From assembly GCA_963971425.1 (NCBI GenBank), contig OZ020514.1, positions 24,664,602-24,728,601 on the forward strand: DNA of 64,000 bases, given 5' to 3'. Below the pieces are notes generated by a model. The model worked only from the letters and a program-made list of their open reading frames with translations. It was not told the DNA's origin and did not search any database. Below are positions 10,951-52,499 of the stretch, piece by piece. Position 1 is the stretch's first letter; the number at the start of each line of letters is the position of its first letter. This DNA comes from Bryoerythrophyllum caledonicum. Taxonomy: Eukaryota > Streptophyta > Bryopsida > Pottiales > Pottiaceae. Made by a program: the position numbers and the translations under genes.

Positions 10951-10956
10951 TTGAAC

Positions 10957-11630: not shown

Positions 11631-11636
11631 GAAGGA

Positions 11637-17436: not shown

Positions 17437-17740
17437 TAGACTTAGATAAATGGACTCTCCTTTTCCTAGATTTGGATTCTAATGCGTGATACTTCATGTA
17501 GTATGGTTCGATCCAATGGTGCTAAGATTATAGATATTTGTATTTGATTACACTTTGTATGACTATATCTGATGCCAATGATTGCTATGAAATATTCTCT
17601 CCATTGTTTTTGCATATCGGTGATAATTTGCAGTATGTTTTTGTTTCTTTTTTAAATAACAATATGGTAAATTGCTTCTAATCTTGAAACCAATAACACC
17701 AGTAATTGCCTTCATGGTAAATGATAGAAAGTAAATGGTG
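17437..17740. other. Spacer after DUF7869 gene, nothing recognised
   Basis: AT-rich, 3'-flank-like sequence without a supported feature. Confidence 0.4.
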
Positions 17741-25500: not shown

Positions 25501-25559
25501 AGATGCTACACAACCTTCTTGGTTGCACACAGGCTAAAGTGTTGTGGGATTGAGACAAT

Positions 25560-25900
25560 GTTGACTCAAAAAGATAACAAAGAACGGTAGTATGTCGTAG
25601 CGTTTGCTTCTAAAAGCAACAACAAAGAATAGTCCAACTACTCGCCTTATGAAGAGGAGGCTTGGGCCGCGGTTTGGGCCATAGTCCACTTTAGGCTCTA
25701 TTTGTATAGGCACCGTTTTATGTTGATGACAGACCATCAATCTTTGAAGTGGCTCATGCAGTCTGGTAAGCTTATTGGCAAGCTTGCAATTTAGGCTTTG
25801 TTGCTTGAGAAGTATAACTTTGAGATTGTACATTGGGCCAACATCACAAATATGGATGCAGATGGCCATACTAGCAATCAGAGTCCTTGGAAGGAGGATT
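25560..25900 (+). pseudogene. Gypsy RNase H domain
   Basis: VVAFASKSNNKE, then NYSPYEEEAWAAVWAIVHFR (the Glu-containing helix), LMTDHQSLKWLM (the third acidic strand, TDH) and LLLEKYNFEIVHWANITNMD (the conserved end with ADxLSR-like DADGHTSN). Stops replace single residues (for example the Trp position before ALLLEK). It degrades the RNA strand during reverse transcription in intact relatives. Confidence 0.85.
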
Positions 25901-26229
25901 TGACTCGTACAAAGTGGCATGCGGACAGGGACAAAAAGTTAGTTTGCGGGTGGCATGCTGTGGCCTATCTCACGTTGATGACTAGATCTGCAACTTCGTT
26001 GTCTGATTTGACAACGGATGAGGAATTGGATAAGGTCCAAGTTTTTAGCAACGTGTTGGAAGACATTCAAATCTACCACAAGCTACAACATAGGACACTT
26101 CCCCCAACTCTTTTTGCTAGGAATGTGATTGAATTGAACAATAAATAGCAACGTAGTGTTGCAAGAACAATCTCCTATTCTGGGTGTGGCCGGATGGGAG
26201 TAGGCGCATAGTTCCCAAGCCAGATTAGA

Positions 26230-27030
26230 GGGCTTCGTTGGTATGGCAAGTACCTAAATAACCTAGGACATTTTGGTGTGCGACGAGCTCATTCGATGTT
26301 GCGTAGCCATAACTAGTGGATCCACATGTATCAACAGGTTGCCATGTATACTTCCTGGTGTGAAGTGCGTGATTAAGTCCAATCTAGCTTCAATACCTTG
26401 TGATCCTAGTTGCAGCCTTTGCACGATAGGGAATTTGACTAGCATTGGTCCTTAATTTTTGTCGGACTACTTCTTGCCACCCCACATGGAACCATTTGTT
26501 CACATGTGTTGGTGGTGGTGGAATATTTTAGCTAGTCGATTGAGTTTGTCGTACTACCCCAAAATTCTTTGGAGCTAGCGGCCATGGCATTACTCAACCT
26601 AGTTTTGGCTTGTTTTGGACCCATAATTGAGGTGTGGACTGACCAAAGGAGTAAGTTCCTTGAAGCTTTCAAAGCTTTGTGTACCAAATCCTAATTTGAT
26701 CGCCGCACTATTTCTTGGGATCATCCAAAAGCAAGTGATTTGGCGGAGCTTGTGGTTCAGACCATCAAGCGGGGTCTACGGAAGTGTGAATTACTTTAAG
26801 ATATCCACTGTGATAGGGACTTGATGATACTACTGGTGGCCATGGGATATCAATTTAGTTATTAGGCACTCTTGGCTTTTTACAAATTGTATCAGTAGTT
26901 GTACTTGCGAGAGCCAATTTTAACGAGTTTTGTATAGGAAAAATTTACTCCGGTTATGGATTTGAACAATCTAGAGGTGTAGGCCCAATGTATACGAGAT
27001 CAAGCGGAGTTCTTCAAGAAAGCGATATTG
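26230..27030 (+). pseudogene. Gypsy integrase: HHCC zinc finger and catalytic core
   Basis: The zinc-binding segment LGHFGVRRAHSMLRS with a later C-x2-C-like stretch (SWCEV) is followed by core traces. VWTDQRSKFLEAFKALCTKS has the second catalytic Asp (WTDQ), and DHPKASDLAELVVQTIKRGL has the Glu. The first Asp (DFxGP region near 26460) is not readable. LREPILTSFV and AEFFKKAIL are the usual C-terminal blocks. Frame changes are frequent. Confidence 0.8.
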
Positions 27031-27584: not shown

Positions 27585-27796
27585 CTCAACAATTATTTTT
27601 TGGAAAAATTCCTCTACATGGAGGTCTACTTTATACATAATGAACTCAAAATAGAGGCTGTCCAAATTTTTTGGAAAAAATATTTTTTTGGTCTGAGCAG
27701 ATAAACATATCATGCATATTTATGTGATGTCTATGTAATACTTCTGTCATATCTAGATGATATATATTGTGTCCGAACCAGTGACCGAGGAACATA
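27585..27796. repeat. Satellite unit, left part, interrupted by copy B
   Basis: GTCTACTTTATACAT, GAGGCTGTCCAAATTTTTTGG, a GATGTCTATG region and GTGTCCGAACCAGTGACCGA match, in order, the ~200-bp units at 43917-44218. It ends in ACATA at 27792-27796, the target duplication of copy B. Confidence 0.8.
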
Positions 27797-27823
27797 ACGG
27801 ATATTTAACTAAATATGGACAAA
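27792..27823 (+). repeat. Left target duplication (ACATA) and terminal inverted repeat of copy B
   Basis: ACATA at 27792-27796, inverted repeat 27797-27823. It contains the small palindrome ATATTTA-AC-TAAATAT. Identical to the right repeat over 26 bp; they differ by one extra base at the outermost position. Confidence 0.88.
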
Positions 27824-28232
27824 ACAAAGTCCAGAAATAAAAACGAGTCAAAAACAAGTCACTGAGAAAAAACTCAGTCGGCGAGCAGTAGAGGCCAAAA
27901 GTAATAAAGCAAGAAAAACACAATCGTCAAATCCGATGTCCCAAAATAACATATACCAGTTGCAAAAAAGAGACGTTTATTGATCAGAACAAATTACAAT
28001 GTCGACTGGCAGCCAACCAAAAAGTGAACATCTCGAGAACAAATAAATACAACTTCCTAGAAGAAATCATCCTACAATAAAGTTGAACGGAAACTAATGA
28101 CACGTACATGAACCCTCAAAATCAAATTATACAACACAAATGTTCACTTTCATGAACTTTACAAAATGCATCCTTCAAATCACGGACAATAACTAATTTG
28201 AAGACCATCGGCTGGCAGCCGAAGGAGAAGAC

Positions 28233-28913
28233 CTAGTACCATTCGATTTCGTCCCATCGGACAACTGTGCGCCCACACTCACGCGCCTTTGAAACCGCCC
28301 AGTGAGACTGACCAGGTCGATGTGCTTGCTCCAAATATTCAGGCACACTTGAAAATCTGTGGAGCGGATGGATGAAGGGAAGGATGTCGGTCACCACGTT
28401 AGGAATAACATGGTCATTGTCTCGAAGGCTCAAATGACCCTGAAACGGCCAGGGAATAAAACAAATATTGTCGGGATTTTTCCTGAGAGACCTTGGGTTC
28501 ACATCCACAAACAGAACTTGATGAGGCAGACAGACAGAACGCGAATGATTCTTCTTAGAAAGAATAGACATCGTTTTGTAACTCCAAGGAAAATTTTTGT
28601 TCTGCGCTAAGTCACGTCTACTATAGACAAATGACAGCCTATCTATAACACCAACCAGAAGAATATGCCGCAAGACAAGTTGTAACTCCTCCATCGGCAA
28701 GGTTGACCAAAGCGCGACGTTAAAGCAAGGGAGCAACATATCAAAAAGTTTCTTCAGGCCCGGCTGGCGAACAATATTCTCACGAGTGCAAGAACCAGAA
28801 ATTGGCACACGCGGTTTTACAAAGCAAAGGAGCCCATTGACACAGAGGACAACACACTTTCGATACGGTGAAGGGGTTCCATATAAGCATTTGAAATAAA
28901 AGGATGACCCCTG
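28233..28913 (-). CDS. FCP1-like pseudophosphatase paralogue 4, copy B
   Basis: Open from an acceptor-like TTTTCCAG at about 28914 to the stop at 28233. The order is FCP1-like: CVVLCVNGLLCFV at the nucleophile loop, QPGLKKLFDMLLPCFNVALW (the RPG...F strand-helix), HQVLFVDVNPRSLRKNPDNI (the IDDS.....N.pNN block), and NVVTDILPFIHPL. Both loop Asp residues are gone (CVNG in place of DxDx) and the second acidic site is VDVN, so catalysis is very unlikely. The tail ends RWDEIEWY. It is flanked by palindromes at 28209 and 28976. The 5' exon is not assigned. It may act as a non-catalytic binding domain, or it may be a decaying duplicate. Confidence 0.7.
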   Translation of the reverse strand, partial: QGSSFYFKCLYGTPSPYRKCVVLCVNGLLCFVKPRVPISGSCTRENIVRQPGLKKLFDMLLPCFNVALWSTLPMEELQLVLRHILLVGVIDRLSFVYSRRDLAQNKNFPWSYKTMSILSKKNHSRSVCLPHQVLFVDVNPRSLRKNPDNICFIPWPFQGHLSLRDNDHVIPNVVTDILPFIHPLHRFSSVPEYLEQAHRPGQSHWAVSKARECGRTVVRWDEIEWY

Positions 28914-29206
28914 GAAAATAAAAAAGAAGACAATCGTCATGATGCCAAATATTAAGGAAAGATGAAAACACTATACCGTCGGCTACCAGCCGACGGGGCA
29001 TAACAAAGCACATGACCATCATCAGAGATGAAGCACAGAAATGTGATAAAGGCAATACATACACACAGGAAAGCTGGAATTTGAAAATATATCATAAAAT
29101 CACAAAAATTAAGAAATTACAAGGAAAGAAGGATCAGTTTCTGATTGTCAGTAGCAATAAAGAGGAATAGAAACTCGAAAAAGCCCATTCGAGAATAGAT
29201 GAATAC

Positions 29207-30112
29207 TTAGTTCGAGTAGGTTATTAACAGCTTCGATTCCAATTCATTGGGACAATATGGAGCGTCGAAATCCAAGGCTTGGGGATAGATGACCTCCCTG
29301 TACTTTTGATGCTGAAACGACCCAGGGTAAAGTCGAGAAGTTCCAAATTCCCAATTTGCATGACGGTACTCCTGAACATTGACTCGAGACTTCAAAAGTC
29401 TTGAGAGAAAGGGAACTAACGCACTCAATAGATAAGGCTGCATCCCGGGAACTGAGATCTCCTGAATATTATACTTAAATAGAGAAGGATGAACAACATT
29501 ATAGGGGCTGGATAAATACAGAAGCCCAGGCCTGGATTTATGATAAAAGCTCTTCTTCTTAGCATTGCCACGACATACAAAACTTTCGGCGAAGAGAAGC
29601 CCCCTTAGTTCAAGGACGAGGTAGTAGCTTGAAGGACCCACTTGAATGTTCCTGTGAACCAAATCGGAGCTAAGGTCGGCTGTTGGAACTGAAGCAGACG
29701 AAGGTGTCGGCTGGGAGCCGACGACATTGACACCGATAGGACAAGCACCATCCGAAACTAAATCGTCGGTGTCTACCACCTCGATGTGACAGCGGGTGGA
29801 GCCAGAAGCGACAGCGACATTCCCAGGACGCATCGGTGGCACGATCTCAACTACGACAGCAGGTTTGATTACAACTGTAGGCTCCCCGACACGCTGAAGT
29901 GAACATTGGCCAGAATCGACATGAAATCCAAGACCGCTTGCCGCAACAGGTAATTCTTGATGCTCCAGTCTCTCGTAATCTCCCAACAGTGAGTGAAAGC
30001 CGCTGAAGCGCGGGGAGATATCCGTCAAGTCAACGTCTCCTAGATCAGTCGTAACTGCAAATTGGTGCGAAATATCCCGAGGAACTCCGACTTCAAGGAA
30101 TAAATTTTGCAT
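29207..30112 (-). CDS. FCP1-like paralogue 3, copy B, core deleted, with N-terminal extension
   Basis: ATG at 30110-30112 directly follows a CTTCAG acceptor-like sequence; open for 301 codons. The first ~160 residues are a variable, partly acidic region (DLGDVDLTDISPRF, VVDTDDLVSDG) interrupted by a palindrome read in frame (VVGSQPT). Then YYLVLELRGLLF represents the nucleophile loop (ELRG, no Asp), but the usual RPG-helix and IW strand are missing and the frame passes to PYNVVHPSLFKYN and VPFLSRLLKSRVNVQEY, the C-terminal part of the fold. An internal deletion of about 100 residues relative to paralogue 1 is implied. The tail (LYPGSFQHQKYREVIYP) matches those of its neighbours. Confidence 0.6.
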   Translation of the reverse strand: MQNLFLEVGVPRDISHQFAVTTDLGDVDLTDISPRFSGFHSLLGDYERLEHQELPVAASGLGFHVDSGQCSLQRVGEPTVVIKPAVVVEIVPPMRPGNVAVASGSTRCHIEVVDTDDLVSDGACPIGVNVVGSQPTPSSASVPTADLSSDLVHRNIQVGPSSYYLVLELRGLLFAESFVCRGNAKKKSFYHKSRPGLLYLSSPYNVVHPSLFKYNIQEISVPGMQPYLLSALVPFLSRLLKSRVNVQEYRHANWEFGTSRLYPGSFQHQKYREVIYPQALDFDAPYCPNELESKLLITYSN

Positions 30113-30280
30113 CTGAAGTCAATAAAGCAGACATGCATAGATTCAGTGAGGCACCAATCACAAATAATTATTCAAAAAACAAAAGAGCTTTATTACCAAA
30201 TAATTGTATTTACAGCAAGTCAAGAAAGGTTTGACAAAATGAACATTCGAGGGCGTCGGCTGCCAGCCGATGCTACAATC

Positions 30281-30994
30281 CTAAGAGGAAGAAATACTAA
30301 GACGCATCGAGCTGGGATAAGCTTCGACGTATTCCGCCCACTTTGGGTCATCGGGCCAGAGTCTAGGATATCCGGTCGAATCGATTTTCTCACAAACATA
30401 CTCAGGAACAAGCAAACCCGAAGAAATCAAATCGGAAAGGAACTGAACAACAGTAGGAAGAACGACATTCTTCAGGGTCTCCTTCGAAGTCAGATCGAAC
30501 GTCAGGGGATGCATGACATTGAGGGGACTGTTCCGGACATCAGCAAAACGACAGCAGTCGAGAAGAAGAGTGTTTAGGCTATTTGCTCTAGTGCCTAATA
30601 GGCCGGACGGATGCAAAAACAGAGTAGAAAGCTTTTGAATATATAGAGTCCGACCGTTGAACGATGTCGCCGCTATGTCGCAGAAACTGTTGTGGAAACG
30701 ATGTCTAATTTTTCTAACGATGCTACACTGTCCCTCGAGAGCTATCATTTGTAACTTCAGAAAAGAGCTCGATTGGTCACTCCAAAGTGCCACACTGAAG
30801 TTGGAAACACAGAACTCGAGAAACTCTTTCAGCATCGGCCGAAAGATGGTATGCCATTTCCTGTCGGCTCCAACACCTTGCGCCATTAAGAGACCGTTCA
30901 AGGATAAGACAAGGAAGTACTTATTGACCTTCTCAGATGGTCCGGCGCGGAGCGATAAAGACCACTCACTTGCGTCGCCAACTCCAGAGTCAAC
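30281..30994 (-). CDS. FCP1-like pseudophosphatase paralogue 2, copy B
   Basis: Open from GTTGACTCTGG after an ATTAG acceptor at about 30995 to the stop at 30281. Motifs: YFLVLSLNGLLMAQG (SLNG at the DxDx site), FRPMLKEFLEFCVSNFSVAL (RPG-like helix and strand), NTLLLDCCRFADVRNSPLNV (IDDS-like; acidic pair reduced to one Asp), then LPTVVQFLSDLISSGLLVPE. The tail is YPRLWPDDPKWAEYVEAYP. The nucleophile Asp is absent. It lies in a head-to-tail array with paralogues 1 and 3, separated by palindromes at 31180 and 30254; each ORF has its own stop, so these read as separate genes rather than one multidomain protein. Confidence 0.75.
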   Translation of the reverse strand, partial: VDSGVGDASEWSLSLRAGPSEKVNKYFLVLSLNGLLMAQGVGADRKWHTIFRPMLKEFLEFCVSNFSVALWSDQSSSFLKLQMIALEGQCSIVRKIRHRFHNSFCDIAATSFNGRTLYIQKLSTLFLHPSGLLGTRANSLNTLLLDCCRFADVRNSPLNVMHPLTFDLTSKETLKNVVLPTVVQFLSDLISSGLLVPEYVCEKIDSTGYPRLWPDDPKWAEYVEAYPSSMRLSISSS

Positions 30995-31205
30995 CTAATA
31001 AAATGAATGGATGACGATGCATGAATTAAGAACCCATCAAGTGCATAGGAACTTGAGATAATTACAATCGATGTTTATTAGGGGTAAACATTCACACAAA
31101 GATAATATCTATGTGCGAACAAAAAATATAATTCCATAGTCATGACGAATGTCATGAAAAGAAATGTAATGAATTTAAGCGTCGGCTGGCAGCCAACGAA
31201 TTGAT

Positions 31206-32150
31206 CTAACGTCTACTTGGAAGTGACCTTGGACGCTTCTCGCTTGGAAAGGACCAAACAAACTGCTCCCATTCGGGTTCTCCAAGAAGAAACCGAGGGT
31301 TCCCCAGGACGGCTACCAGCCGAGTCTTATAAGGGTCGATAGGCTTAGGTTCAAGAAAGGTCACCCTGCGGCCGAAAGGCACATCAGAGACGACGGCAGC
31401 ATCAGGCAAGACCACATCTACACTCGCTGAGAGCCCATCATTCAAGTCCGGATTCGCAACTTGAGGATGAGGACGACGATGCTTGTCACTTTGAAAGGGC
31501 AAGGCGAACTTCTTCACCAGGATAAGGTGGTCCACAATTGAGGTGTACAATGGTACAGTCCAGCCCACTTCCTTCATCGCACTCAGAAAGGAAGTTATCA
31601 CCGAGAGGGCTTGCCTACTCTCTTTGGCAGTCTCAGTTGAAGTGAGAGTGTAGGGTATGGGATGAATGGCGTTACATGGAGAATTCTTGACGTTCGAGTA
31701 CGGATGAACGTCAATCAGGAGGGTGTTGGCGCTATTGGCTCCTTTCCCTATCAAATCCCCATAACTAAGAAATAATGTTGATAGCCTCTTGAGGTAGAAC
31801 TTCTTGCCATCGATAGAATACCGAGCTACGTCGCAAAGGGTATTATCGAAGACATGTTTGATTCTTTGAAGAATGAATTTGAACTGATCTTGCAGGTCAT
31901 TAAGAAGAGTCCCCACTCCAGCCGGACTTTCGGAACTCCAAATCACGATAGTAAAATTATCAACACAGTACTTGAGAAATTCTTGGGTGTGAGGCCGGAA
32001 CTTTGTAACACGATCAGCACCATGCGTGAGAACCAAACCATTCAATTCAAGTACAAGGAAGTAATCTTTAAGGGGTGTCAAACCCACCTGAACCATGTGC
32101 TCAAACGCTTCGGATTCTCGAACTGCACCAACCTACTCTACTGCACCAGA
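31206..32150 (-). CDS. FCP1-like pseudophosphatase paralogue 1, copy B
   Basis: The clearest FCP1 fold in the window. YFLVLELNGLVLTHG stands at the DxDx(T/V) loop (E-L-N-G: first Asp to Glu, second to Asn). It is followed by FRPHTQEFLKYCVDNFTIVI and WSS, then NTLLIDVHPYSNVKNSPCNA (IDDS block as IDVH), then the C-terminal helix. A ~100-residue charged extension follows, ending in EWEQFVWSFPSEKRPRSLPS. The frame opens after an upstream splice acceptor near 32150; a family-2 palindrome lies in the presumed intron (32227). Known FCP1/SCP enzymes need both loop Asp residues, so this should be catalytically dead yet is uninterrupted for about 300 codons. Confidence 0.78.
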
Positions 32151-32406
32151 AGCAGCAAGTACAGGAGTACTAGTCCCCTGATCAGTTGATTTAAAATAAA
32201 GACCATTAAAGGACATTAGATCTCTGGTCGGCTGCCAGCCGACGAACTGACTCAGAAGATTAGACAAGGTCAGAGAATAATTCAGAAAATCAAACATAAA
32301 ATTAGTAGTGTATTCCAGCACAGAATCATGATGGGTTTATAAATATTTCAGAAAATTAGTTGCACGCTAGGTCACTAAATTCTGAACCTACAGTTAGCTA
32401 ACTATA

Positions 32407-34440
32407 AAATTAACCTCCAGATGGATTGCCTGCGCGATCCACGACAGGAGACAGGGACTCGTTTGGGAGATCTTCGCCATCGGGGGTCATTGGGGTGTTC
32501 GGTCTGGAAGAAGAATTGCTTCTTGAACCACGCTTTGCAGCAGAACCCTTCGTCTTTGCCGATGGTGACGTCGCCCGCTTCTTCCCTAAAGTTTTGCTGG
32601 TAGTCTTTGCCTTCTTTGCTTTAGGGCTTCCAAGAGTGACGCCAGTACCCGTTGAAATTACGTTAACTTCATTCTTAGGTCCCGGCGGGACAACTCGAGA
32701 ATCTCGAGTAATCGATCTTCAGGCAGCAGGGTCCGTTGCGAGATTTGGAGGATGGACAGTCTTTGCATTAGTACCCGCTATAGATGAGACGCCAGTCCGG
32801 ACAATCGTTTCGACTGGCGGTTGCTCGGCCAAATTGATGACCACAGACCCGGAAGGCATCGCCTTTTCCACTATTGTAGGCAAAAAAACCGGCAGGGATG
32901 ACTGAGGTCCTTGGACGATATGGGTAATCACATGGTCGAGATTGGTCTTCTCTTCATTTATCCCGACATCACGATCAGAAGTCTGGTCGTCCGATAAATC
33001 ATACACATCCAACGAATTCCGTGACATGGATGCTTGGGTAGATTTAACCACAAACTCATCCACAACCTTCCGAGCAAGACGAGAAAATTCATCGTCTTCC
33101 ACAACCTTTGGCGGTGGCCCAAAAGTCTTTCCAAGCTGGGTAACAACAAATGTCAAATCCGACGGCTGAGGCCAGGTGATTCGATTAGAAACACCAGACG
33201 GCTGCGGGAGAATCGACATGTTCTTAATGTGCTCCTTCGCGATAGCAATGTCAGCTACCTCGCGCACAAACTCAATCACAGTTGCTTTCGCCCGCTGAGA
33301 AAAAATACGAGAAGATAAGTAAGAAACCCGCTGCAAAAAACAGTCGGCTGCCAGCCGACGACATGCAATGACAAGAATTGGTAAATGCAGGACAAAAAAA
33401 AAGAGCAAGCACGACAAGGGTTAAGGAAACCAACCAAGGCCAAGGCTATGACATTCCCACCACCCCAGGCATTGAAGACAGTCAGGTTTGATTCCTTCAC
33501 CGCTAAGGTGGGACTCAATATTGCGGTGAGCAAACCCATGCATGGATTGCACACATCCCCACACCAGCTCTCGGACGAGGGCGAAGCAGCGTCGTCATAG
33601 ACAGGATTAAGAGGCTTCGTCAGTCCCGTCACCTTCTTGAACTGGGTGAATCTTTCACGCTCATCACTAGGTTTGTTGTAGAGGATTCCAACGTTAGCCA
33701 AAGGTCTGTCGTGCATGGCCGACACCTTGAACTTTTGGCTACTGTCAGGGAGGTAGCGAATTGTGTGGACGGCACATACTCCTGTCGAACTGCGACATTC
33801 CGACTCGATTTGAAAACTGGAGTTGTCGTCGGTAATAAGAATTGTAGGAACGAAAATCTCAGATTGTTCATCATCACTCACTCGCAGCACCCTCTGCACA
33901 ACTGCTTTGAGCCTGTCTCTGCCAATAAAGATCGATTCCCCGGCTTCGTCGAATCCAAACACAACGAACATCTCGCGAGCTCCCTTCTCGAGTTGCACGT
34001 CTCCTTTGTCGTCAATCTTCTTCACCAGTTCGACAAGCCCCTTCGCAACACGAACATCGAAGCGAATAGCAAACTCATCAACCAGATCCTCATCACAAAG
34101 AACGGCGTACTTCTTCACTGCCGACCAGAACTCGGGCGGGGCCTCGTTGGTCGTTGGAGTAATCCCGTTGTTCCTCCCCTTCAGGAATGTTGAGCCAGCA
34201 TCAGACTGCTCCAATTCGCGTCGGATGTTATCAAGGGTTTCATCGTTGATACCCTTCTCAACGGCAAGCAACGTAAATTGCTCATACGCCCAAGGGACAT
34301 ATGCGGACTCTCCAGGCTTCTTCAGTGGATAATCGCGGTACTTCAGCATCAATTCGTTTTTGATGATGTAGTTCATCTTTACATCCTTTACCCACGACTT
34401 CATAGACACACCAATAGCCCCCTTTCTCCTTTCATGCGTT
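32407..34440 (-). pseudogene. DNA-methyltransferase-like C-terminal region of the GQH gene, copy B
   Basis: Exon 33435-34440 begins near GVSMKSWVKDVKMNYIIKNE and ends with CNPCMGLLTAILSPTLAVKE and NLTVFNAWGGGNVIALAL. A 140-bp GT-AG intron (33295-33434, palindrome at 33343) follows, then RAKATVIEFVREVADIAIAK. The run LL..I.......VFNAWGGGN...ALA..R..A..IE is the layout of the SAM-binding motif I and following helix in permuted N4/N6 amino-methyltransferases, where motif I comes last. No clear DPPY catalytic motif is visible upstream, so the fold is inferred and activity is doubtful. A Lys/Ser/Pro-rich tail (PKAKKAKTTSKTLGKKR) follows a TGA at 32717. A frameshift near 34440 joins it to the upstream exon. 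Confidence 0.45.
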
Positions 34441-36230
34441 CACCTTAATATACACCTTCTTATCCAGAATCGCCTCAGCCAGCTTCATGGAGTCCTCATC
34501 ACGCAGGTTGACGAGGTACGAAAGGTCCGTGTGCGTGATCTCCCGCTGCGGCATTCGTGGAATTTGAAGAGGAGGTTGACCGTTCTCCCCAATTAGTTGA
34601 CCCATCTGCCAAGCGTTGAAAACCACTTGCCACTTGTTGTAGAGATCATCAGGAACGAAAACAAGGGGTAGCTTCTGGGTCTCCACGTCTTTAGCCTTAT
34701 TCATAATCACAGTGAGGTGATTCTTGCAAAAATCCTGCAATAATCACGATGAATAGAGTCAGGTTCCAACACATGTAAGGCCGTCGGCTGCCAGCAGACG
34801 GTCAGATACACTGAAGCCAAACAACAAGATGAGCATGAACAAACAAGTGAGCACTAAAAGTACCTTCTAGGCAGCATGGTCTTGAAGCTTGTCAACGCGA
34901 CCAAGCTCAATCCACCTCTCCCTCATTCTACGAAGCTGGGGAACGTAGGTCTCTTCCGCTTTCTTCTCGGCAACATCAACGTTCAGAAGGTTCGAAATTT
35001 TCACCAGGTCGTCTTGAGTATTCGACCAGAGTACGATAATGTCCCACTCTATGAAATACTTAGCCCTCGACGATTCGAGGTCCTCCATCTCTCCGAGCTC
35101 CTTACACATAGTATATGTGTGCTACCCACCAATGATGAACCAATGACAATTTGGTTCTTCATACCACTTGTACGTCTGACCGCCGAAATGAACTTGGTCC
35201 TCCATCATTTTTGGCAGGCTCCTGCGAAGAAATTCCATACCCTTTAACTCCTTGCCATCTTGAGCAGAACCTGGTGGAGCACGCAGAGGAACATAGTATA
35301 GTGGCGGTTTTGCTCGCCAAGGACCAACAGCTTTGTAGATGATTTGAAGCTGGTCGAGGCGCCTTTCGACAAGTTCACGGTAGACCATTCCATGGGGCGC
35401 AAGGTGGATCTTTGACGAATGAATCTTTACTGGCAAAACCTGCTGCCCAAACGGATAACAACACCCTAATCCTTTCTCAACCGTGTTGTACATCTCTTGG
35501 ACCTCCTTACTGTTGGTATTGGATAAGAGGTTGTTCAAACATACCAACGCTTCGGCCACCGTCTTCTCCTTCGCAATTTTCTTCGACGTCCGCTTCTTTG
35601 GAGCCGGATCAGGTGCCACAGCAACAACAGTCAGCGCAGAACTGCTAGCCTTTTTTGAGGCCCTAGGCTTCTTTGCAGCTTTACGTTTGCCATTCCCCTC
35701 AGATCTGCCATTGAGTGCCACTCTCTGGTCCTTCGCCTGCTTAAAGCATTCGACCAATTCCGCGCGGCTTTTTGGGTGAAAGTCGGTAAATTGCATGCCC
35801 ACCTCCTGTGCTGACGTGCAGAGCTCCAGTGAGCAGAGAGCCCAGCGAATTCGAACAGCATAGGACTCCGGGTCGTCGTCGGCAACTCGAACCTTCACCT
35901 TTAGTAGGAGTCGAATACAGTTGTCGTCCTCAGGATCTTCCATGATATCCATCATGGCAACAAGGTTTCCACCAAGAAAACTCTTGCCCAAGTGCTTCCC
36001 GTTGATTCCCATTTCAGTCACCTCCCCTAGCCTCCAGGTAATGCCCCATTCGGTCAATTCAGGACGAGCCTCGAATGTGGCATTTGGAACCTGATTATCA
36101 AGCCAGACTGCCTCGTCTTCACTAATAGAAGGCTCAAACAGCCACTTCAGCTTACTGAGCCTGCGCAACAAAATAGCGAGCATTTCTCGTGAGCCACATT
36201 CGAGTAGAACGTCGTCGGCTGGCAGCCGAC
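34432..36230 (-). pseudogene. N-terminal GQH (ParB/DGQHR-like) part of the same gene, copy B
   Basis: The main exon (34867-36230) starts inside a family-2 palindrome (CRLPADD) and contains: a conserved block (TWRLGEVTEMGINGKHLGKS, NLVAMMDIMEDPEDDNCIRL); a basic linker (GKRKAAKKPRASKKASSS, PKKRTSKKIAKEKTV); EVQEMYNTVEKGLGCCYP; LVERRLDQLQIIYKAV; and CHWFIIGG-HTYTMCKELGE, where the dash is TAG at 35122-35124. Copy A has Gln there, so GQH became GG-stop-H. A second TAG lies at 34867. A 126-bp intron (34741-34866, palindrome 34781) leads to exon 34432-34740 (LPLVFVPDDLYNKWQVVFNA). ParB-like domains bind or cut DNA; here this is inference from GQH and the Ala/Cys helix. Confidence 0.55.
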
Positions 36231-37930
36231 ACAAGAGAATTCCGTCGGCTGGCAGCCGACACTATAGATTACCATTGGAACAGAGCACAATTGCTACAAT
36301 ATATAACATTATTTCATTCAATGGAACTAAGAATTGAAAAATCCAAAATATATACAGCTTGCCGTCGGCTGGCAGCCGACGATGAAAGAGAATTATACCT
36401 ATCGACTGACGTCATTTTGTCGGCTGCTTGAAAAAACCCGTCGGCTGGTCACTTTGACTCTAGCGCTCGAGCTCCTCCGCCTCGTTCCGCCTCCTGGGTG
36501 CTCCTCCACTGCTTTCTTCAACTTCCGGAAACCCTACATCGACTGGCCGCGGACGGATTCAGTCCTAAACAAGGAAAAATCTTACAACCTATTCCTAAAG
36601 CTGCTTAACTAAACCAGGAAGAGTAGATTGCAAATGACCCGGTTTGGTGGAAGCCTGACCTTTTATACGTCCTCAAATCTGAACGCCGCGACCGTTCGAT
36701 CAACTTTCGTCCTTAATCGAAAGGCCATCGAAGCGTCTCGGTAGTCTGATTGTCTGATAGTCTCGGTAGTCTGTCAGTTTTCATCCAACCGGCTGGATTT
36801 ACAGTTGGCATTTTCAATTTCATTAAAATTTATTTTATAATTTTCCAATATTCAGATTTACTTGTCGCTTTTTTGATATGATGTAACTTTCTTTTTTATA
36901 TTCTAATTTAGATTTTCTTAAATGTCTCTTTTATATATTCTTTGATTTTTTGAAATTTCTTTTTAGTTTGGCTTTCGGATTCGACTCATTCTTCCTCGTC
37001 ATTTATATTTTGTTTTTGATTCTCTGAAAAAATCTTTTCGAATTTCGCAAGGAAGTTTCGTGTTGAAATTTCACATTCGATTCCGTTCAAATTTGAATTT
37101 GAAGTCCAAGAATGAATGCGCGCGAATTTCTGGGCGCGAATCCACGAAGGTGTTTCTGGCGTGAAATTTCAAAATTGACTTTTGTGCACATTGTTCAGCT
37201 GAGAGAGGGATATCAACGCATCTACTCCGTATCCTCTGTCATTTCTCGTCTGCTTCTCTTTCTTGCACCTGCTCTCACACGCTTTCGTGTAGTATAGTTT
37301 TTGTCTCAGCTTAGATCTTCCGCTTTGCACTTTTCTGCACTGGCTGTATTTAGCATTCAAGCATTCTACCTGTTGCGCGTTGACAAGCACTTTCTGGAAG
37401 TAGGCGTTCATTTATGGTGTAGGCGATCATGTCTGGTTCAATTAAGGTCAATGCTTTCTCCGGTTAGAGCTCAGATTCCATGTTCAGTAAAATCCGTGTA
37501 TTGTCCTGCAGCTTTCCAGATTTTGAGTAGCAATTTGATACTATGTAAGTCGACCTTGTTGCCTCACCTTAACGCTGATTCTGCGTTGATCACCTGACTA
37601 CCTGAAGTCTTGATACCCTAAACACTGGAAACCAAATGTGTGTACAAAAGTGCTCCTTCCCAGTTTGTATCTGCATTCCAAGAACTCACGCACATGCTCT
37701 TTCCGAATCACAAATTCCCAAGTCTCATGCAAAAGCACTGAAATCCTGTGGAAGTTCACCCGAAACTCGAAACCCTAATCTTGAACCCTAATCCAAAAAC
37801 CTAATGCATCAGTTTTGACTCTGTGATGCATGCATTCATACACTCCCTATTTGTGAGCCGTTCTCGAGCTGGATCCATAGGTTGATATCTTCGACAAATT
37901 TTGTCGGCTCCCAACCGACGAAGCCCAGTT
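36231..37930. promoter_or_regulatory. Divergent promoter region of copy B with palindromes and telo-box motifs
   Basis: This 1.7-kb gap separates minus-strand genes from plus-strand genes. It holds palindromes 36244 and 36364, half-sites at 36419 and 36439, and a palindrome at 37903 immediately before the ATG at 37944. AAACCCTAA-type telo-boxes lie at 37756-37805. The middle (36800-37100) is T-rich. No gene is supported. Confidence 0.5.
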
Positions 37931-37943
37931 CGCATTCTGGATC

Positions 37944-38633
37944 ATGGACTACGGACCCATTTTATCGTTTATGAAGAACGGAAAATCAGGTCGATGGAAG
38001 CCACGCAAAGGTGTTCAAGTCGCCCTAACTCACTCAGGTCTCTATTATGCTGGACGCGCAGTTGTTCAAAAAATCATTCTGAGGGATCCATGGATTATTT
38101 GTGTCAAGGTAATCGATGTTTCCGATTTGATGGAAATGCCCATTCCGTTCCCAATTGATGGACTATCCATGCTTCGCAAATGCTCTGGCCGGTCAACCGA
38201 TTGGGATGCGGCTGACCTGCGTCCATTCGCTGTCATCGACGAACTCAATGAGGATCAACCGGAATCCATATTGCAACCCGTTGAGGATATCAAACCAGTT
38301 CTGTCGTTTTGGAACCTTCGTGACGGAATGAAGGTTGCCCTCCTTGTTGATGTCATGGGTCACAACTGTTGTGCAAGCGTTGGAGTTATCGACAAGTGCT
38401 CACCAAAGGGATCGTGGGAAGGGTTCCTAATTCCTCACAGTTTTTTTCTGGTTGTCCGAGTCCAGACAGTAAATGTTAAGTTCCTCACTCATACCGCATA
38501 CTGCGAGCTCCCTGAGGTGATCACGCTTGGTGACACGGTGGGTAACCTTGTTCTCGATGGAGTGGCTATCGAGTTCGCCCCATGCGTGTCGGTGACGACA
38601 CTAGATACTCCTCATCTGATGAATATTCAGTGA
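37944..38633 (+). CDS. 229-aa element protein with two similar modules
   Basis: ATG at 37944 is 25 bp after a palindrome; open to the TGA at 38631-38633. The next gene's ATG is only 5 bp downstream. Two halves look alike: GVQVALTHSGLYYAGRAVV ... PWIICVKVIDVSDL ... PIPFPIDGLSML, and GMKVALLVDVMGHNCCASVG ... FFLVVRVQTVNVKFL ... ELPEVITLGDTVGN. The pattern (G..VAL, central Val-rich strand, then a Pro and T-L-G step) recalls a small beta-rich module found in plant En/Spm-related transposon proteins, but this is a weak resemblance. I do not recognise the family. It may be a separate protein, or a first exon frame-shifted from the DUF7869 gene. Confidence 0.5.
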   Translation: MDYGPILSFMKNGKSGRWKPRKGVQVALTHSGLYYAGRAVVQKIILRDPWIICVKVIDVSDLMEMPIPFPIDGLSMLRKCSGRSTDWDAADLRPFAVIDELNEDQPESILQPVEDIKPVLSFWNLRDGMKVALLVDVMGHNCCASVGVIDKCSPKGSWEGFLIPHSFFLVVRVQTVNVKFLTHTAYCELPEVITLGDTVGNLVLDGVAIEFAPCVSVTTLDTPHLMNIQ

Positions 38634-38638
38634 GTGAG

Positions 38639-41600
38639 ATGTCAGGCGCTTCGGATGACGATGATCGCAGGGACAGGATCTATGATGACAGCACTTTTCA
38701 AGTGTCCACAGGATTCAATGTGGATTCGGGAAGCGACTCTAAAGCATGTCGAGAGCGATATGAGGACGTTCCGTCGGCTGGCAGCCGACGTTCAACTGAT
38801 CAACCACCGATTGAAGCAACCTTCCCTTCAGGGGTCAATTGTGATTAATTTCAATATCCGGATCGACCACAATGGAGGAACAAGTACTACCATTTGCTCG
38901 ACAATAATCTCGCTTTAGTTGGGCGGGCGATGATTCAAGTTTGTCTCCCGCATGAAGTATGTGATGCGGACGTTTTGGGTGACACTGACGTTGGCGTACT
39001 CTTTGTTTCTGAGCATGAGAATCTTCAGATGACGACGCTCCGCTGGAAGATTTTGCACACGCGCCTTGAAGGTGGTCCACTACTGTCAGAGTGCCTCATC
39101 TACTACTCTGAGCACAATGAAGCCACATGTAAAGATGACGGGCTTGAGGGGGTGGCCAAGGATCCATACAGAGGTATGAAACGGGAGCTTAAGCAGAAGT
39201 GCGATGTTTCTGTTACCAAGTTTCGACGCCTCCAGTCCAAAGATTCTTGTCAACTTGTTAGTTCGAAAAAGTGTTGTTCGAGACGATGCTGTCAGATTTT
39301 TCTTTGGGTGGACACTTGTAGAATCTGCCAACAGTTCTACTCCTCAAGCTTTGAACAACGGCGTGAAACTGCGTACGCTGTTCAAGGCCAGCTCCACGAT
39401 GTTCCTGGCTTCCGGAAACCCTTCATAACTGTGCATGGTGTTGACGTTTGCGAAGTTGCGTGGTTTCGCATTCATGGCGTCTCCAAGTCTGCATACTACA
39501 AGTATAAATCGGATTCATTGAACGGACGCGTAAATGGTGGTCATGGAAATGCGGGAATTCTGCTCCCCAGGTCTCAGACTGTTCAAGCTCGTGGGACCAT
39601 TTCCAGAATCATCAACGATAATGCAGACCACATGCCAAATGAGTTTCGAGTCATTGGCAACAAGAGGGTTGCATCTCTGATGGTTCTTCTTGCTGCGATG
39701 GACTGGAATCATCTCCGTGATATGTCCAACCTGGTATCGTTTAACATTATTACTACTTGTACATTTGACTTGCTCATATATCCCATTGTGTCGCCTGGCA
39801 GCCGATGTATGTCTATTTTTGCATCTCATTAATTCTACTTCATTAGTCTTGATCGCAATCTCTTTCGATTCCAGGTGAACTTTGAATGTTGTGTCAAGCC
39901 GATTTCGCAATCTGCTGTTAGTCGATTGAAACGGAAGTTTTTTCGGAACGTTGAAGTGAAGGCCGTGGGTAGCAACTTTTCGAGATGTACCGAGTGTGAC
40001 TATCTGGTTGAGTTTCTTGCCAAATATCCTCGCGGGTCCGACGAATGGCAAGCATTGCATGATGATCGGGCGAGGCATCTCAACTACCAAAGTGCTTGCC
40101 GTAATGTATACTCCGGATGGACATCTCAGTCCATTAATTACCCGTCTGAGTTTCTCTGCATTATTCACGACAAGATGGACACTTCAAAGACGGCCATTCC
40201 AAAAATGCAACGGATTACGAAAGCGACCGCAGGTCTTAGACAGATTCCTATTTCATGTACTGGCATGCTTACTCACGGTCACGGCGACGGTGCATATGCG
40301 CATTACTCCACGTCTTTATGGCCTGGGGACTCCAATTTCACAATTTCGTCCATTTGCCGTGTTCTTCGGGCATTGGAGCGCCGACGTATGCGTGAGTCAA
40401 AGCAGCTTTTTACATGTCCACCTTAGAATTCGTTCTTTGAATCTTTACTCCGTGGTAAATCTAGATGTAGTTCATCGATTCCAGAAGCTAGGGGCGATCC
40501 CCTTCCAGTTTCTTCGCTCGCTCAACCGGAAGCTAAGCTTCCTCGGAAACTGTATCTCCAACTTGATAACTCTGCAAAGGATAACAAGAACAGGTTCGTC
40601 ATGGCCTTCTATTTGCTTCTCACAGCCAGACAAATTTTTAAGGAAGTGACTGTGGGATTCTTGATTGTCGGCCACACTCATGAGGACATTGACGCGCATT
40701 TTAGTTACCTTTCAAAATTCATCAAACGGAAAAACATTTACTGCTTAGCTGACCTCATGAAATCTTTCATGGACTCTCAGAAGACAGTAGCCTTTATTCC
40801 TGAACTTGTTCAAGAGGTTGCTGATTTCAAAAGTTACATTGCTGATTACCATCACGAAGGCAAGAATAAGCTTGTTGGCCTTGGTGAGATGCACATTTTC
40901 AAATTTTACGTTGAAGAGGAAGGTGAAGATGCGGGATGGCCGGTCATGAGATACAAGAGAAGTGCGACGGATTCATCATGGCTCCCTCCGGGTGAGGCTC
41001 ATTTGTTTTTGTCATCGTTCTGTTTGCATTCATTTTCTGCTGATTTTTTTGTTACTTATTTGTCGGCTGCCAGCCGACGGATTTTACCTTTGTGCTTCTT
41101 TTGTCCTTCATTCCTTCCATTTCATTGCTTTCTTGTCTTTGTCTAACTTTTTTGTATATTGCATTCAGATAAGCCTGTGAAGATGAGGACGGCGGATCAA
41201 TTCGGGAATCCAAACCTTCCGATTGGTGATCCAAAACCAGTACCTTTCAAGCCGCTTTGGGGTGACGTTCATGTCAACGAATCGAAGCGAAACAAGGAGA
41301 AGGAGGCTGCAAGAGCGACTGGAAACAGCGAGAAGCAGTCCTTTATCAAGAACGGTATTGCAAAGTATATTGAGTTCTGGAGGATGGGCATGGCTCGAGA
41401 CAAACGATATGCCGCGGATACGGAACCTTTCATTGATTATTGGGAGCGTCTTTTACAACTAATATCTGGTCCTCTCCCGCCAAATCCCGACTGTCTGCAA
41501 GAAGGATTCTGGCCGAAATCGGACTAGATGCGTGATCATGCTCGCGCAGCGTCACAGCCGGATGCAATTATTTCCGGCTTGGATGTCACACCAGAAGATG

Positions 41601-42049
41601 AGCCTGACGCTTACCCTTTCTAAAGCCCCGAGATGAGCCGTCCGTAATTATCCTTCAATCCATTTCGTGATGTTCTCCTTGCTGATTTTGTACTCTGCCG
41701 ACCTTGCACTGGGCATTACCTTCCTGTGTGGATGGGCCGGGTACTGGAGTGCGTCAACCACAGTCCCGGGGATTCCTACGGAAACTTTAAGGTTGAATGG
41801 TGGGTTCCACTCACGACCAAGAAAGATTCTAAGAAGATCATCGGGAAGGAGTGCTGGAATAGGCGGTGGGAGGGTAAGCACAGGGATCCAGATGTTCAAA
41901 ATTGTAGTATCGTTCTCTTCTCGCATCGCTACCCTTCTCATAATAAGCGTGGGCCTCCAAAGACCCACCGTATCCCACCTGAAGCAGCGAGCGTTGCAAT
42001 GGCTTGTGTGGAGGTTGGTGGCATCTCTATTCATGGCAGTAGCGAATGA
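38639..42049 (+). pseudogene. DUF7869-type transposon protein (GHTHEDID), copy B
   Basis: ATG 38639 gives acidic MSGASDDDD. Exon 1 (to 39733): Cys-rich KKCCSRRCCQIF, VHGVDVCEVAWFRIHGVSKS, GGHGNAGIL, NADHMPNEFRV. Intron 1 is 39734-39874 (141 bp, palindrome 39790). Exon 2 (39875-40991): CTECDYLVEF, IIHDKMDTSK, HGHGDGAYAHY, LYLQLDNSAKDNKNRF, FLIVGHTHEDIDAHF, SWLPP. Intron 2 is 40992-41168 (177 bp, palindrome 41062). Exon 3 runs from 41169; the frame changes to LPVWMGRVLECVNHS near 41700, ending at 42049. Stops: TAA 38846, TAG 40424, TAG 41525. DUF7869 proteins occur in eukaryotic mobile elements; HGDG, LDN...DN and HED are candidate metal-binding acids of an RNase-H-like transposase (inferred). 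It is the likeliest recombinase of the element. Confidence 0.8.
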
Positions 42050-42230
42050 TATCATTTTCTTGGTCGGCTGCCAGCCGACGGATTGATGTTTTCTACAATG
42101 TAATTCGTTCATCATATATTAATTTGAATGCTGCCTGGAACAGCAGTATCTACCGGTCTTTCGCCCATTGATACATTTTTCAAGTAACTCATCTCTCATG
42201 ATCTCAGTCTGAGTAGTTGGTGTTATTCTT

Positions 42231-42554
42231 GTCGGCTGCCACCCGACAGCCTCTGCATTTTGCATATGCAGTTCGATCCATTTTTTGTGGTCAAAGTCTT
42301 TGTGTGTGTGAAGGAAAGACTTAAATCTGTGGCACGTGTGTTGCTCGGTATCATTATGACGAGTAGATGGGTAGTTGTACATGAGTAATTATTGTTGGTG
42401 CGCAATTTGCGGCAAATGAATTATAAATTCACGGATTCACTGTATGTGAAGTATCTCATTGTGTTCAGTTGGTTTTGTGTATCTTGGTTTATATTTGCCA
42501 CAGGTTGGAGTGATTTCTTCTTTTCTTAGTCTGATTCTGTTTCCAGCCGACGAC
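42231..42554. other. Spacer with palindromes
   Basis: Palindrome 42231-42247 and half-palindrome 42543-42552 lie between the DUF7869 gene and the next start codon. Nothing else is recognised. Confidence 0.5.
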
Positions 42555-42989
42555 ATGATTGAGACTTGTAGTATGGCGCTTGTCAGGAGAGCGAGAGAGG
42601 AAAAGGAGGAGAGGGAGGCAAATGAGGCCAGAGTTGCCAGGGAGGCAGAGTCTCAGAATAGTATAGTGTCTGAAAACTCTGTGGATAGCACTGTTCCGTC
42701 GACTAACGTTCATGAGGAGAATTGGAACGAGGCAGATGACAAAGAGGAGTCCAACCACGATGTCGATTCAGACGTTGATGGCAGTCAGCATGTCGTTGTA
42801 CATTTGGGATGCTCTGATGAAGATGACCTCCACTGCAATGGATCGGACAAGGTGGACTTGTGGGCTACCGGAATCTTTGACAGCGATTCGTTTTCAAGCT
42901 TTTCGGGTAATCCATTTGAAACCGGATGCGACACCGGTTCGGACGTGGACTCCAATATGTACGCTCCTGCATGGCGCAAGAACTGGTAG
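42555..42989 (+). CDS. Small acidic protein, copy B
   Basis: ATG 42555 follows immediately after a half-palindrome (TTTCCAGCCGACGAC); 144 aa, stop at 42987-42989. The N-terminal third is a charged helix (RRAREEKEEREANEARVARE). The rest is rich in Asp, Glu and Ser (DDKEESNHDVDSDVDGSQ, DSDSFSSFSG) and ends NMYAPAWRKNW. No domain is recognised. It is the last gene of the plus-strand series. TTTCCAG just upstream could be a splice acceptor, in which case this is a 3' exon of the preceding gene. The acidic composition resembles the N-terminus of the DUF7869 protein. Confidence 0.5.
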   Translation: MIETCSMALVRRAREEKEEREANEARVAREAESQNSIVSENSVDSTVPSTNVHEENWNEADDKEESNHDVDSDVDGSQHVVVHLGCSDEDDLHCNGSDKVDLWATGIFDSDSFSSFSGNPFETGCDTGSDVDSNMYAPAWRKNW

Positions 42990-43888
42990 ATGTAAAGTAT
43001 AGTTCAGCTTGTAAATAGTCCTCTGCAGTTGCTTTTCTCTAATCGATTTTCCAGACTGCTGCCATCTATGGGGCACCTCCAAATGTAACATTTATTTGGA
43101 CTAAAATATCGTGCTCTATTCGGATCTTATCCTTGATGTACTTTATTTTAGTCAAGCTTGTTTAACCTTTCTGTTTTGATGTTGTGCTTTGTAGAATGCT
43201 GTGTGTAATAGAATTTTGTTATCAATGTATTCTCTTGATGGTCGTTTATGTATGTTCAATATTTTACGTGCTGCCAATTGGCAGTCATCTATTTATGAAA
43301 CCCACTTCCTCTTCTTTGTTTTCATGTTGACCACCTCGTTTTCATGTTGACCACCTCTCATTGCTTCATATTTTTGGTTTAATTTCCAAATTATCACCTT
43401 ATTTTTCATCCCATTTTTTGAATAATTTATTTGATCATTGGAGTTTTTTTACTCACCTTTTTTAATCATGAAATTTCTTCTATAAAAATATTCGATGATT
43501 CTGATTCCTCCTCTTTCTTTGTCGGCTGGCCCCCGACCTTTAATTCTGTCTTCGAGAATCCTTAGGGCATATGGAGATTCTTTAGGGTTGAAGGGGAATA
43601 TTTAGGGTCTGGGAGAATATTTAGGGTCTACGGAGAATCTGTAGGTTTTTGGAGAATCTTTAGATTTTGTGGATTGACAGCCAACGCTTAAAGTTAAGGA
43701 TTCTAGTGGTTTTGAAGAGACTTTATTATGATATGAGACAGTTATTATAGTTTTGTGTGGGACAATGTTTGGTGGCACGCAATTTCAAATGTATATGTTT
43801 AGGATTTAGCCCATATTTTCTTGTTTATTTTTATGATATAGGAAATGAAATCCGAGTCTAAGTTATTTTTTGGTCCATAATTGATCGA
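42990..43888. other. Right non-coding end of copy B
   Basis: Contains a short repeat GGAGAATCTTTAGGGTTT-like, about 22 bp each, at 43550-43672 (TTTAGGG resembles plant telomere heptamers) and the last palindrome at 43521. No gene. Confidence 0.6.
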
Positions 43889-43921
43889 TTTGTCCATATT
43901 TAGTTAAATATCCGCTACATA
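43889..43921 (-). repeat. Right terminal inverted repeat and target duplication of copy B
   Basis: Inverted repeat 43889-43916, then ACATA 43917-43921. Confidence 0.88.
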
Positions 43922-44218: not shown

Positions 44219-45490
44219 TGTAAATAATAATCAATTGGCATTATTGGTTCCACAAATCTTTAAGAGAGAGAAATGGCCTTAGCAAGCGTCGAGGAAGAGA
44301 CTCCCTTCAACGGGTAATGTCCATGCCCCATGTCCCCGCCCTATCCGATGACATCTCCACCCCCGAGGATAACATCCACACCCTGGACAAGGACATCTAT
44401 GCCTCGATAACAACATCCACGCCTTGGCCAAGAACGTTTGCGCTCCAATGTTAACGTTTGCGCCTTGTTGGAGCCATCAAAGTTGGACTTAATCCACTAT
44501 GGAACAACATCTCACGTACTAAGCTGTCATTTACAGCCAACTATCTTATCCTTGAATTAATTACTATAACACCATATTCAATAAAATGAGACAAATTGTG
44601 AATTTTGAGACTAAAAGCCAATTATTTTGGAACTATTAACAGTGTGAATACTTATTGCAGACTAAAAGATACAATAAACAACATCATGAAAAACATCACC
44701 AATCCATCACCTCAACTTTGTATGCGCAACATTTCAAATTATTAAGTCTAAATAAAAGGTAAATTTTAGAATTCGGGCCTATTATCAACAAGTTAGGAAG
44801 TGCATATATTGGAAGGCAGTTCTTGGAGAGTACCCTCTCCTGCGTTATATTTCAATTAAGACTGAAGACCACAAGTCTATGTTTAAAGTGGTATGATATG
44901 ATAGACCTATCCTCACCACAACGATCAAGCAACAACCATCCACGAAAACTTAGAACTCATGAAAAATGGCAATTTATAATTAGAAATTACAAATGATGAA
45001 ACAAGGATGTAAGCATGCCAAAATGGCAAAAGCGAGCTGAATCTATAATAGTTTTGACTTTTGGCTATTAATAGATGACCACATGATGCATGGTCAATAC
45101 CATACAAAAATACATGGATTTTAGAATAATATGCACAAACAAAATGAATGGTTTAGAATATTTTATTTATAAAATCCAAATATTTTACTGCTGGCTATAT
45201 ATAGAGAAAACTCCACCAATAGATTCTATAATCTTCTCTAACTTAAAGAATCATCATATCATATTATGTACTGATACTATCTACTAGATACATTTTAATC
45301 AAGTCCTAGCGCCTTTAGACGCAACGCCTCTTGCGCTTTCAATTCTGCATAACCAATCATGATTTCTTTTTTCCGAGAATATGGTTTAAAATAACAATTG
45401 AGGTCAACTATCTGCGTACTCTCAGAAAGAAACGACAAAGGACACACACCAATATCAGCCTACAACCATCACGAACTTGAGACGGAACAA
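44219..45490. other. Non-coding region with a small ACATCC-ACGCC repeat
   Basis: At 44340-44470, variants of GACATCCACGCC and CTGGACAAGG recur about every 26-30 bp. The remainder (44470-45490) is AT-rich with nothing recognised. Confidence 0.5.
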
Positions 45491-45497
45491 ACTTCAC

Positions 45498-45866
45498 TCA
45501 ATTCTTTGATGGTCTAGATCTCCAAAGCCTTGGTTGTAAACCCATAGATTGAGTTTGACACCCCATTGAACGACTAGGTTCGGCTATGACCTTCATTGCG
45601 TTTCGAGAACGTGAAGCGGAATATCGGCTTTGCTTAGCAGGCGACTGTCTACAATCGGAAGAATTTGGCACATTCTCCTTCTCCATGTTCAGATCAACAA
45701 CATCATCTCAGTAGAGCTTCTGTTGAGGAGTACAATCGGTTCTAGCTTGAACAACAAAAAACATCCGCTTGAAAGGTGAACGGGATGCAACAGGCACTAT
45801 CCCTGCCCTCCGCTTGGGAGGGCTATCTACAACACCATCATCCACCTTTTGCTTAGAGAAGTCCAT
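45498..45866 (-). pseudogene. Small element protein with MDxS...VDDGVVxSP motif, copy C
   Basis: ATG at 45864-45866 gives MDFSKQKVDDGVVDSPPKRR, homologous to the start of the gene at 2488. A TGA near 45712 interrupts it, after which KENVPNSSDCRQSPAKQS continues to the stop at 45498. The basic Ser/Pro-rich composition fits copy A's exon 2 (SAPTRRHSLPKSN). It lies about 470 bp downstream of the FCP1-like gene in the same orientation, as in copy A. The function is unknown; conservation of the pair is the main evidence that it is a real gene. Confidence 0.5.
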
Positions 45867-46336
45867 GATAGTAGGGCAACATTAGTTGGAGTGCACATAA
45901 GATATGGTTTTGATTGCTAAGGCTGGGAGATGTCACCACCATAAGACCCAAAGTACTCAGAAATGATGCTAACATCCGACGGCAGCATACTACTATTATT
46001 CATGTATGCACATAGATCAGCACTAGACTTTGAAACCTGAAATCCATCGATATGCAGCAAAGAATCAGAGAATGACGAACACATACGAGGCAATGAAATT
46101 ATGGTTGACCCAAAGATAAGTTTTTGACGTCATAAGAAGTGACAGACACGACAAATATGTAGAAGAAAAAAACAAATAGTTGATATTTATTTATAGCTGT
46201 CAAAATATATACAAAACTTACAAAGACAATTTAGCTACAAGCGTATCAAAAAATGTATTGCGCGTACTAATCCTACATTGAAAATCCCTACATTTGTAAA
46301 GTTCCCCTATATTTTGTGTAAAGGTTACTCCTACAA

Positions 46337-47368: not shown

Positions 47369-47561
47369 TTTTTAAATTACGATAACATTATATATACAGA
47401 GATATACACTCCTCGTAAAGTACATCAAAAATTGTATGGATCTAATGCCTCCATGCAAACACATCCAAATAAAACCTATTGAGTCTAGGGCTGAGCACTT
47501 TCATTCCAAAAAAACCACAGCTGCATTTTGTGATAAAATGGGCAAAAATGTAAAAAAAAAG

Positions 47562-52491: not shown

Positions 52492-52499
52492 AACTGTGA

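Follow-up and report, generated by a model that had tools for sequence, protein, structure and literature searches.

Large DUF7869-encoding DNA transposons in the moss Bryoerythrophyllum caledonicum carry family-private palindromes that may act as self-recognition sites

What kind of element occupies some 16 kb of a satellite array in the moss Bryoerythrophyllum caledonicum, and how might it recognize its own DNA? The element lies in a 64,000-nucleotide stretch of contig OZ020514.1 (hereafter the window, whose positions serve as coordinates) and holds two gene blocks in opposite directions: on the minus strand a gene named GQH followed by four FCP1/NIF-like open reading frames (ORFs), and on the plus strand a two-module part, a DUF7869 gene and an acidic ORF. 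We find that it is one copy of a large family of cut-and-paste DNA transposons, referred to here as family B, and that its length is dotted with copies of a 17-bp palindrome that occurs nowhere else in the window. The explanation that we favor as probable is that of a cut-and-paste DUF7869 transposon whose family-private palindromes function as self-recognition sites.

The element spans positions 27796-43916. Its left terminal inverted repeat (AACGGATATTTAACTAAATATGGACAAA, plus strand, 27796-27823) is 28 bp long and differs at one position from the right terminal inverted repeat of the same copy (minus strand, 43889-43916); the 26-bp sequence CGGATATTTAACTAAATATGGACAAA at 27798 has a perfect inverted partner at 43889-43914, in agreement with the repeats reported in a preliminary description of this DNA. 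That description also gave a target duplication of ACATA. A duplication is indeed present, but it is the 4-bp ACAT (27792-27795 and, as read from the junctions, 43917-43920), the earlier boundary having been one base off. We set the element and its duplication at these positions because 4 bp is the length of the family's duplication: among 32 insertions whose junctions were read (the 31 paired insertions described below and one with a right end that became visible in fetched sequence), the duplication is exact and 4 bp long in 28, 5 bp long in one and absent from three, compared with a 4-bp flank match of 1.5% when the left and right flanks of different insertions were paired as a control. The left terminus reads AACGG in all 32 insertions and the right terminus CCGTT in 30, with CCGCT in the window copy. 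Terminal inverted repeats and a target duplication of constant length, two features expected of class II elements of the DDE/D type, are both present. Finally, the empty site claimed earlier holds up, as the flanks joined through a single duplication copy match a neighboring satellite monomer (73% over 229 columns, E 3e-33) in an alignment that runs through the junction without a break and restores the monomer.

We searched the source genome (a 437-Mb assembly of 894 contigs) with each end and obtained at least 40 matches to the left end and at least 40 to the right. Among the left ends listed, 31 of 40 can be paired with a right end that lies no more than 80 kb away on the same strand, and nine are unpaired. 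Of these 31 pairs, again among the matches listed, 18 span 14-18 kb (16.6-16.9 kb in 14 cases), 12 span more and one spans 3.2 kb. The last of these (G000:C7:19140209-19143404) has a 4-bp duplication and probably represents a non-autonomous copy with an internal deletion. We fetched 20 kb around ten of the other 39 left ends among the matches listed and obtained five complete copies of 16.4-16.75 kb that are collinear with the window copy and five that are interrupted or unresolved within 20 kb. An assembly join inside the interval is unlikely because these complete copies are collinear, and many copies do have these genes enclosed between paired terminal repeats and flanked by target duplications, as the preliminary description had proposed to check. 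The six complete copies (the window copy and five others) are 95-96.5% identical in pairwise comparison, and because none of them keeps every inferred exon open, all six look dead; exon borders were drawn by eye, and some of the stops and frame breaks in the GQH and DUF7869 genes could be border errors. The earlier view of a complete element is thus upheld for its paired and duplicated ends and fails for its genes. The window copy, which compared with most complete copies lacks about 300 bp of FCP1-like ORF 3 and some 345 bp close to the right end, is a decayed family-B element with intact ends and broken genes.

The protein that moves such an element is very probably encoded by the DUF7869 gene (plus strand, 38639-42049; inferred exons 38639-39733, 39875-40991 and 41169-42049), whose earlier assignment is confirmed by Pfam (DUF7869, E 1.3e-22). 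A predicted structure of a relative (pLDDT, the predicted local distance difference test score, of 90.7) has an RNase H-like core of the integrase/DDE type with three conserved aspartates, the core and the three acidic residues by which DDE/D transposases are recognized; a first model built from eight sequences (pLDDT 43.6) was not used. The Foldseek match of the predicted structure was not significant by itself, and a DUF7869 profile searched against PDB sequences returned one match at chance level. The modelled C-terminal barrel, which is BAH-like or MazF/SH3-like, may contact chromatin. That a DDD transposase acting on AAC...GTT ends moves the element is well supported. The two-module sequence in front of the gene (plus strand, 37944-38633), previously read as a separate protein, proves to form the N-terminal portion of the DUF7869 protein: the moss relatives P0009 and P0012 have both modules fused to DUF7869-type sequence, and P0002 has the second. 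P0009 is listed with PF26133 in its protein database, and our Pfam scan of P0009 did not show that family. The acidic ORF (plus strand, 42577-42989) has no Pfam match. The nearest named DUF7869 proteins are from Physcomitrium patens (58%) and Ceratodon purpureus (59-61%), metagenome entries reach 72-73%, and entries from Riccia sorocarpa were recovered with a profile.

In the window copy, the DUF7869 frame contains five in-frame stops before its terminal TGA, and the copy carries two deletions. We considered an alternative genetic code in which TAA and TAG encode glutamine, under which the plus-strand gene would be one open frame ended only by TGA. In alignment with moss homologs, four of the five stops fall at glutamine, tryptophan, cysteine and a variable place, respectively, and the first lies in an unaligned stretch; given these residues we rejected the alternative code, and decay under the standard code fits.

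The palindrome, which the preliminary description did not mention, is GTCGGCTGSCAGCCGAC. It consists of 8-bp arms flanking one central base that is G or C equally often, and it occurs 20 times with at most three mismatches between 28001 and 43537 (starts at 28001, 28207, 28978, 29706, 30255, 31181, 31308, 32227, 33343, 34783, 36214, 36244, 36364, 37903, 38773, 39790, 41062, 42063, 42231 and 43521), compared with none in the rest of the window and none in five shuffles of the element. Only three of the 20 sites fall in inferred coding sequence, which makes up 68% of the length (P 2e-6). The sites are fairly evenly spaced through inferred introns and intergenic DNA, mostly far from the ends, and each of the six complete family-B copies contains 20-23 of them, with places that nearly always correspond between copies.

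A comparable arrangement with a different word is found in the neighboring relatives of the element. Positions 3524-18437 (plus strand) hold a family-A element with other insertions inside, a right end at 18420-18437, a broken DUF7869 gene at 12182-17433 and the palindrome CACTTTAGCTCGACTCGAGCTAAAGTG; a part of a second family-A element (minus strand, 1-3523; left end at 3506-3523 with one mismatch) is apparently inserted in another A element. The DUF7869 gene of the host family-A copy is interrupted at about 13950-16410. The region-A palindrome has 23 sites, some in tandem groups, and none elsewhere in the window (at most 7 of 27 mismatches). On the other side of the family-B element lies element C (minus strand, 44568-52492), a partial copy with a family-A-like left end at 44568-44585 (3 of 18 mismatches), for which we looked for a right end and found none. 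Its palindrome, TTATCCTCGACTCGAGGATAA, has nine sites and one stray at 61616 (at most 5 of 21 mismatches); an FCP1-like frame at 46130-47500 is 33% identical to that of region A and matches no Pfam model, and a GQH-like frame was recognized by eye only.

Family A can also be followed beyond the window. A family-A copy elsewhere in the genome (C2, L093-L095) is 18,726 bp long with perfect 18-bp ends, AACACCATATTCGTTATA, and has the gene order and orientation of family B, namely GQH-like, FCP1-like (one rather than four) and DUF7869, the last of these an uninterrupted frame of 951 codons. It contains 32 palindrome sites when as many as 8 of 27 mismatches are allowed, a cut-off set without a shuffle control, and a tandem group of them sits in the long stretch between the two gene blocks. 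CTGC stands on both sides of this copy, a 4-bp match that is weak evidence of a duplication because the flanks are a CTGC-rich minisatellite. Family-A ends read AACACC...GGTGTT and have AAC...GTT in common with family B. Outside the moss assembly, a contig from another sample that was binned as a cyanobacterium (L001) encodes a protein 47-76% identical, by segment, to the broken DUF7869 gene of region A, and three copies of the region-A palindrome precede its DUF7869-type gene; upstream of the gene, the two align only in short stretches that hold palindromes. A scan of L001 with arms of 7 and a center of at most 4 gave no recurring palindrome family. In the source genome, the L001 protein has at least 48 scored full-length relatives at 76-77% identity, and 29 of the 48 matches listed are free of stops (counted by hand), which brings the question of palindrome binding within reach of experiment. 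Both of the two family-A relatives that we inspected, one of them C2, have the family-A palindrome on either side of the gene. DUF7869-like genes also occur on two further contigs in prokaryote bins, L002 and L003, and all three contigs are probably eukaryotic contamination of these bins. The palindromes of L002 and L003 do not match those of A, B or C. L003, which is binned as Bacteroidetes and contains a distant DUF7869 match, has the 24-bp palindrome CTTGTGTTCGTTTCCGAACACAAG at 5034-5057 and 5123-5146, which is perhaps a further private palindrome.

Because the palindromes are private to a family, mostly noncoding, spread over the whole element and retained beside a DUF7869 lineage in different samples, they resemble binding sites of a dimer encoded by the element. 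Under the explanation that we favor, the DUF7869 protein would move the element by cut-and-paste, and the palindromes would be bound by a dimeric protein of the element, perhaps GQH, that recognizes its own family only and maintains its own chromatin in an open state, in the manner of VANC on Arabidopsis VANDAL elements. We consider it probable that the palindromes are sites of an element-specific protein; that their purpose is anti-silencing is a possibility of rather less weight. Some of our observations weigh against this explanation: palindromes in decayed copies change faster than their own flanks, 117 of 123 DUF7869 homologs have no corresponding peptide (looked for at the protein level) and the end-to-end reading of family A comes from a single copy, C2.

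The alternative that survives best, although we regard it as unlikely, is that the palindromes are additional sites at which the transposase or a helper assembles a long stretch of DNA into the transposition complex, much like the subterminal sites of Spm/CACTA elements. Their dyad symmetry would suit a dimer here as well, and in the five other complete copies palindromes stand near both ends (about 200 and 410 bp from the left and within about 400 bp of the right) as well as inside; most sites, however, are far from the ends and fairly evenly spaced, as subterminal sites need not be. We think it somewhat less probable that the palindromes are useless small mobile or recombinogenic repeats multiplied in one ancestral element per family. 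This would account for the tandem groups of region A, for the faster decay of palindromes in dead copies and, through inheritance alone, for the shared site places within a family, but it sits poorly with a layout that is similar between families of different sequence and with an L001 alignment confined to the palindrome-holding stretches. Slightly less credible again is a role as RNA hairpins in introns or untranslated regions, for the processing or regulation of element transcripts. Several sites do lie in inferred introns, and four (28207, 30255, 31181 and 42063) are no more than 15 bp away from an inferred stop codon, yet others fall in inferred coding sequence or near the element ends, the family-A tandem group stands between the gene blocks and no strand is preferred because G and C are equally frequent at the center. 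Lastly, a virus-derived or host-captured gene cluster, which the large size and opposed gene blocks might suggest, is very improbable given paired inverted ends, 4-bp duplications with matching ends in 28 of 32 insertions and a DDE-type core. Among viral contigs, we found neither such palindrome patterns nor DUF7869.

The minus-strand block, which would supply the putative binding protein, departs further from known families. The GQH gene (32416-36183; inferred exons 36183-34864, 34734-33435 and 33294-32416) has three in-frame stops and a frame break. It has a weak relative in the family-A copy C2 (tblastn E 2e-5, 23% over 239 residues). The gene was earlier described as methyltransferase-like; its resemblance to ParB and methyltransferases was recognized by eye and lacks profile support, with Pfam ParB and N6/N4 methyltransferase models absent from matches up to E 5-10. 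Its pieces match no Pfam family, 964 of the 1167 residues of the protein found no match at E <= 0.001 among 5.8 billion proteins, the second piece has no match among PDB sequences and the family-B protein has none in window regions A and C. A family-A GQH piece matches HTH_Tnp_Tc3_2 at E 0.005, below the cut-off. The FCP1/NIF-like ORFs, all on the minus strand, are ORF 1 (31206-32096; NIF E 1.9e-11), ORF 2 (30281-30994; E 1.3e-5), ORF 3 (29207-30118; about 300 bp deleted) and ORF 4 (28233-28911; E 5.8e-6). Three of the four genes claimed earlier therefore pass the Pfam cut-off, and the fourth does not even in an undeleted copy (E 0.044); ORF 1 gave chance-level matches only against PDB sequences. 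The hallmark of an active FCP1/NIF phosphatase is the motif I nucleophile aspartate. In alignments made by eye, families A and C retain it as DLNG, and it is absent from all four window ORFs, where its place holds E (ELNG), S (SLNG), E and C (CVNG) in ORFs 1 to 4. The FCP1-like proteins may target the transcription machinery, those of family B without phosphatase activity.

Elsewhere in the window, about 800 copies of the 7-bp tandem repeat CAACGGA adjoin element C (53800-59390), a 280-bp unit with G+C-rich words is present about two times (60703-61244), and an RNase H frame that we take to be retrotransposon-like (25396-26403) needs readthrough of TAA and TAG to stay open.

Our findings give DUF7869 a likely function and could account for many bryophyte genes annotated as hypothetical. 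More tentatively, these elements may represent an undescribed DUF7869 transposon superfamily of mosses, and probably of land plants more widely, in which the private palindrome of each family and its own binding protein de-repress or mobilize only kin. If true, this would be an independent case of transposons escaping host silencing through sequence-specific self-recognition, and it predicts that the protein of each family binds only its own palindrome.

How do these elements compare with known systems? The plus-strand gene belongs with the DUF7869 proteins (Pfam PF25273) of mosses and a liverwort, previously a domain of unknown function. The unfamiliar gene set noted earlier is borne out, as only DUF7869 and NIF exceed the Pfam cut-off among the scanned ORFs of the window and family A, the term DUF7869 is absent from the open PubMed Central literature that we searched and we found neither these elements nor this transposase group described there (a search without preprints, Repbase or Dfam). 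Compared with retroviral integrases, mariner (Mos1) and other DDE transposases, identity in the compared rows is about 7-14%, and the DUF7869 protein differs in its likely third residue, an aspartate, its greater length, its C-terminal barrel and its 4-bp duplication. Spm/CACTA elements are plant transposons that likewise contain many copies of a short binding motif, in their case subterminal and not palindromic, and they duplicate 3 bp of target; the moss elements have another transposase and other ends (AACGG...CCGTT and AACACC...GGTGTT rather than CACTA). Mutator and VANDAL elements duplicate about 9 bp, compared with 4 bp in family B, and a Pfam scan of P0002, P0009, P0012, P0010 and P0005 returned DUF7869 or nothing above the cut-off, with no Mutator transposase model among the hits; a domain recognizable as VANC was likewise absent from the Pfam hits of these proteins and of the scanned window and family-A ORFs. 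The closest likeness is nonetheless to the VANDAL/VANC system of Arabidopsis, a multi-gene plant transposon with a short family-specific sequence in its noncoding parts, in which, as set out in one study, VANC21 localizes through a short motif to introns, intergenic DNA and terminal noncoding regions, and related VANC proteins act on different VANDAL families (PMC5735166). In the moss elements, the repeated word is instead a palindrome of 17-27 bp, a putative binding site, and it accompanies a likely transposase of the DUF7869 type together with NIF-like and GQH genes.

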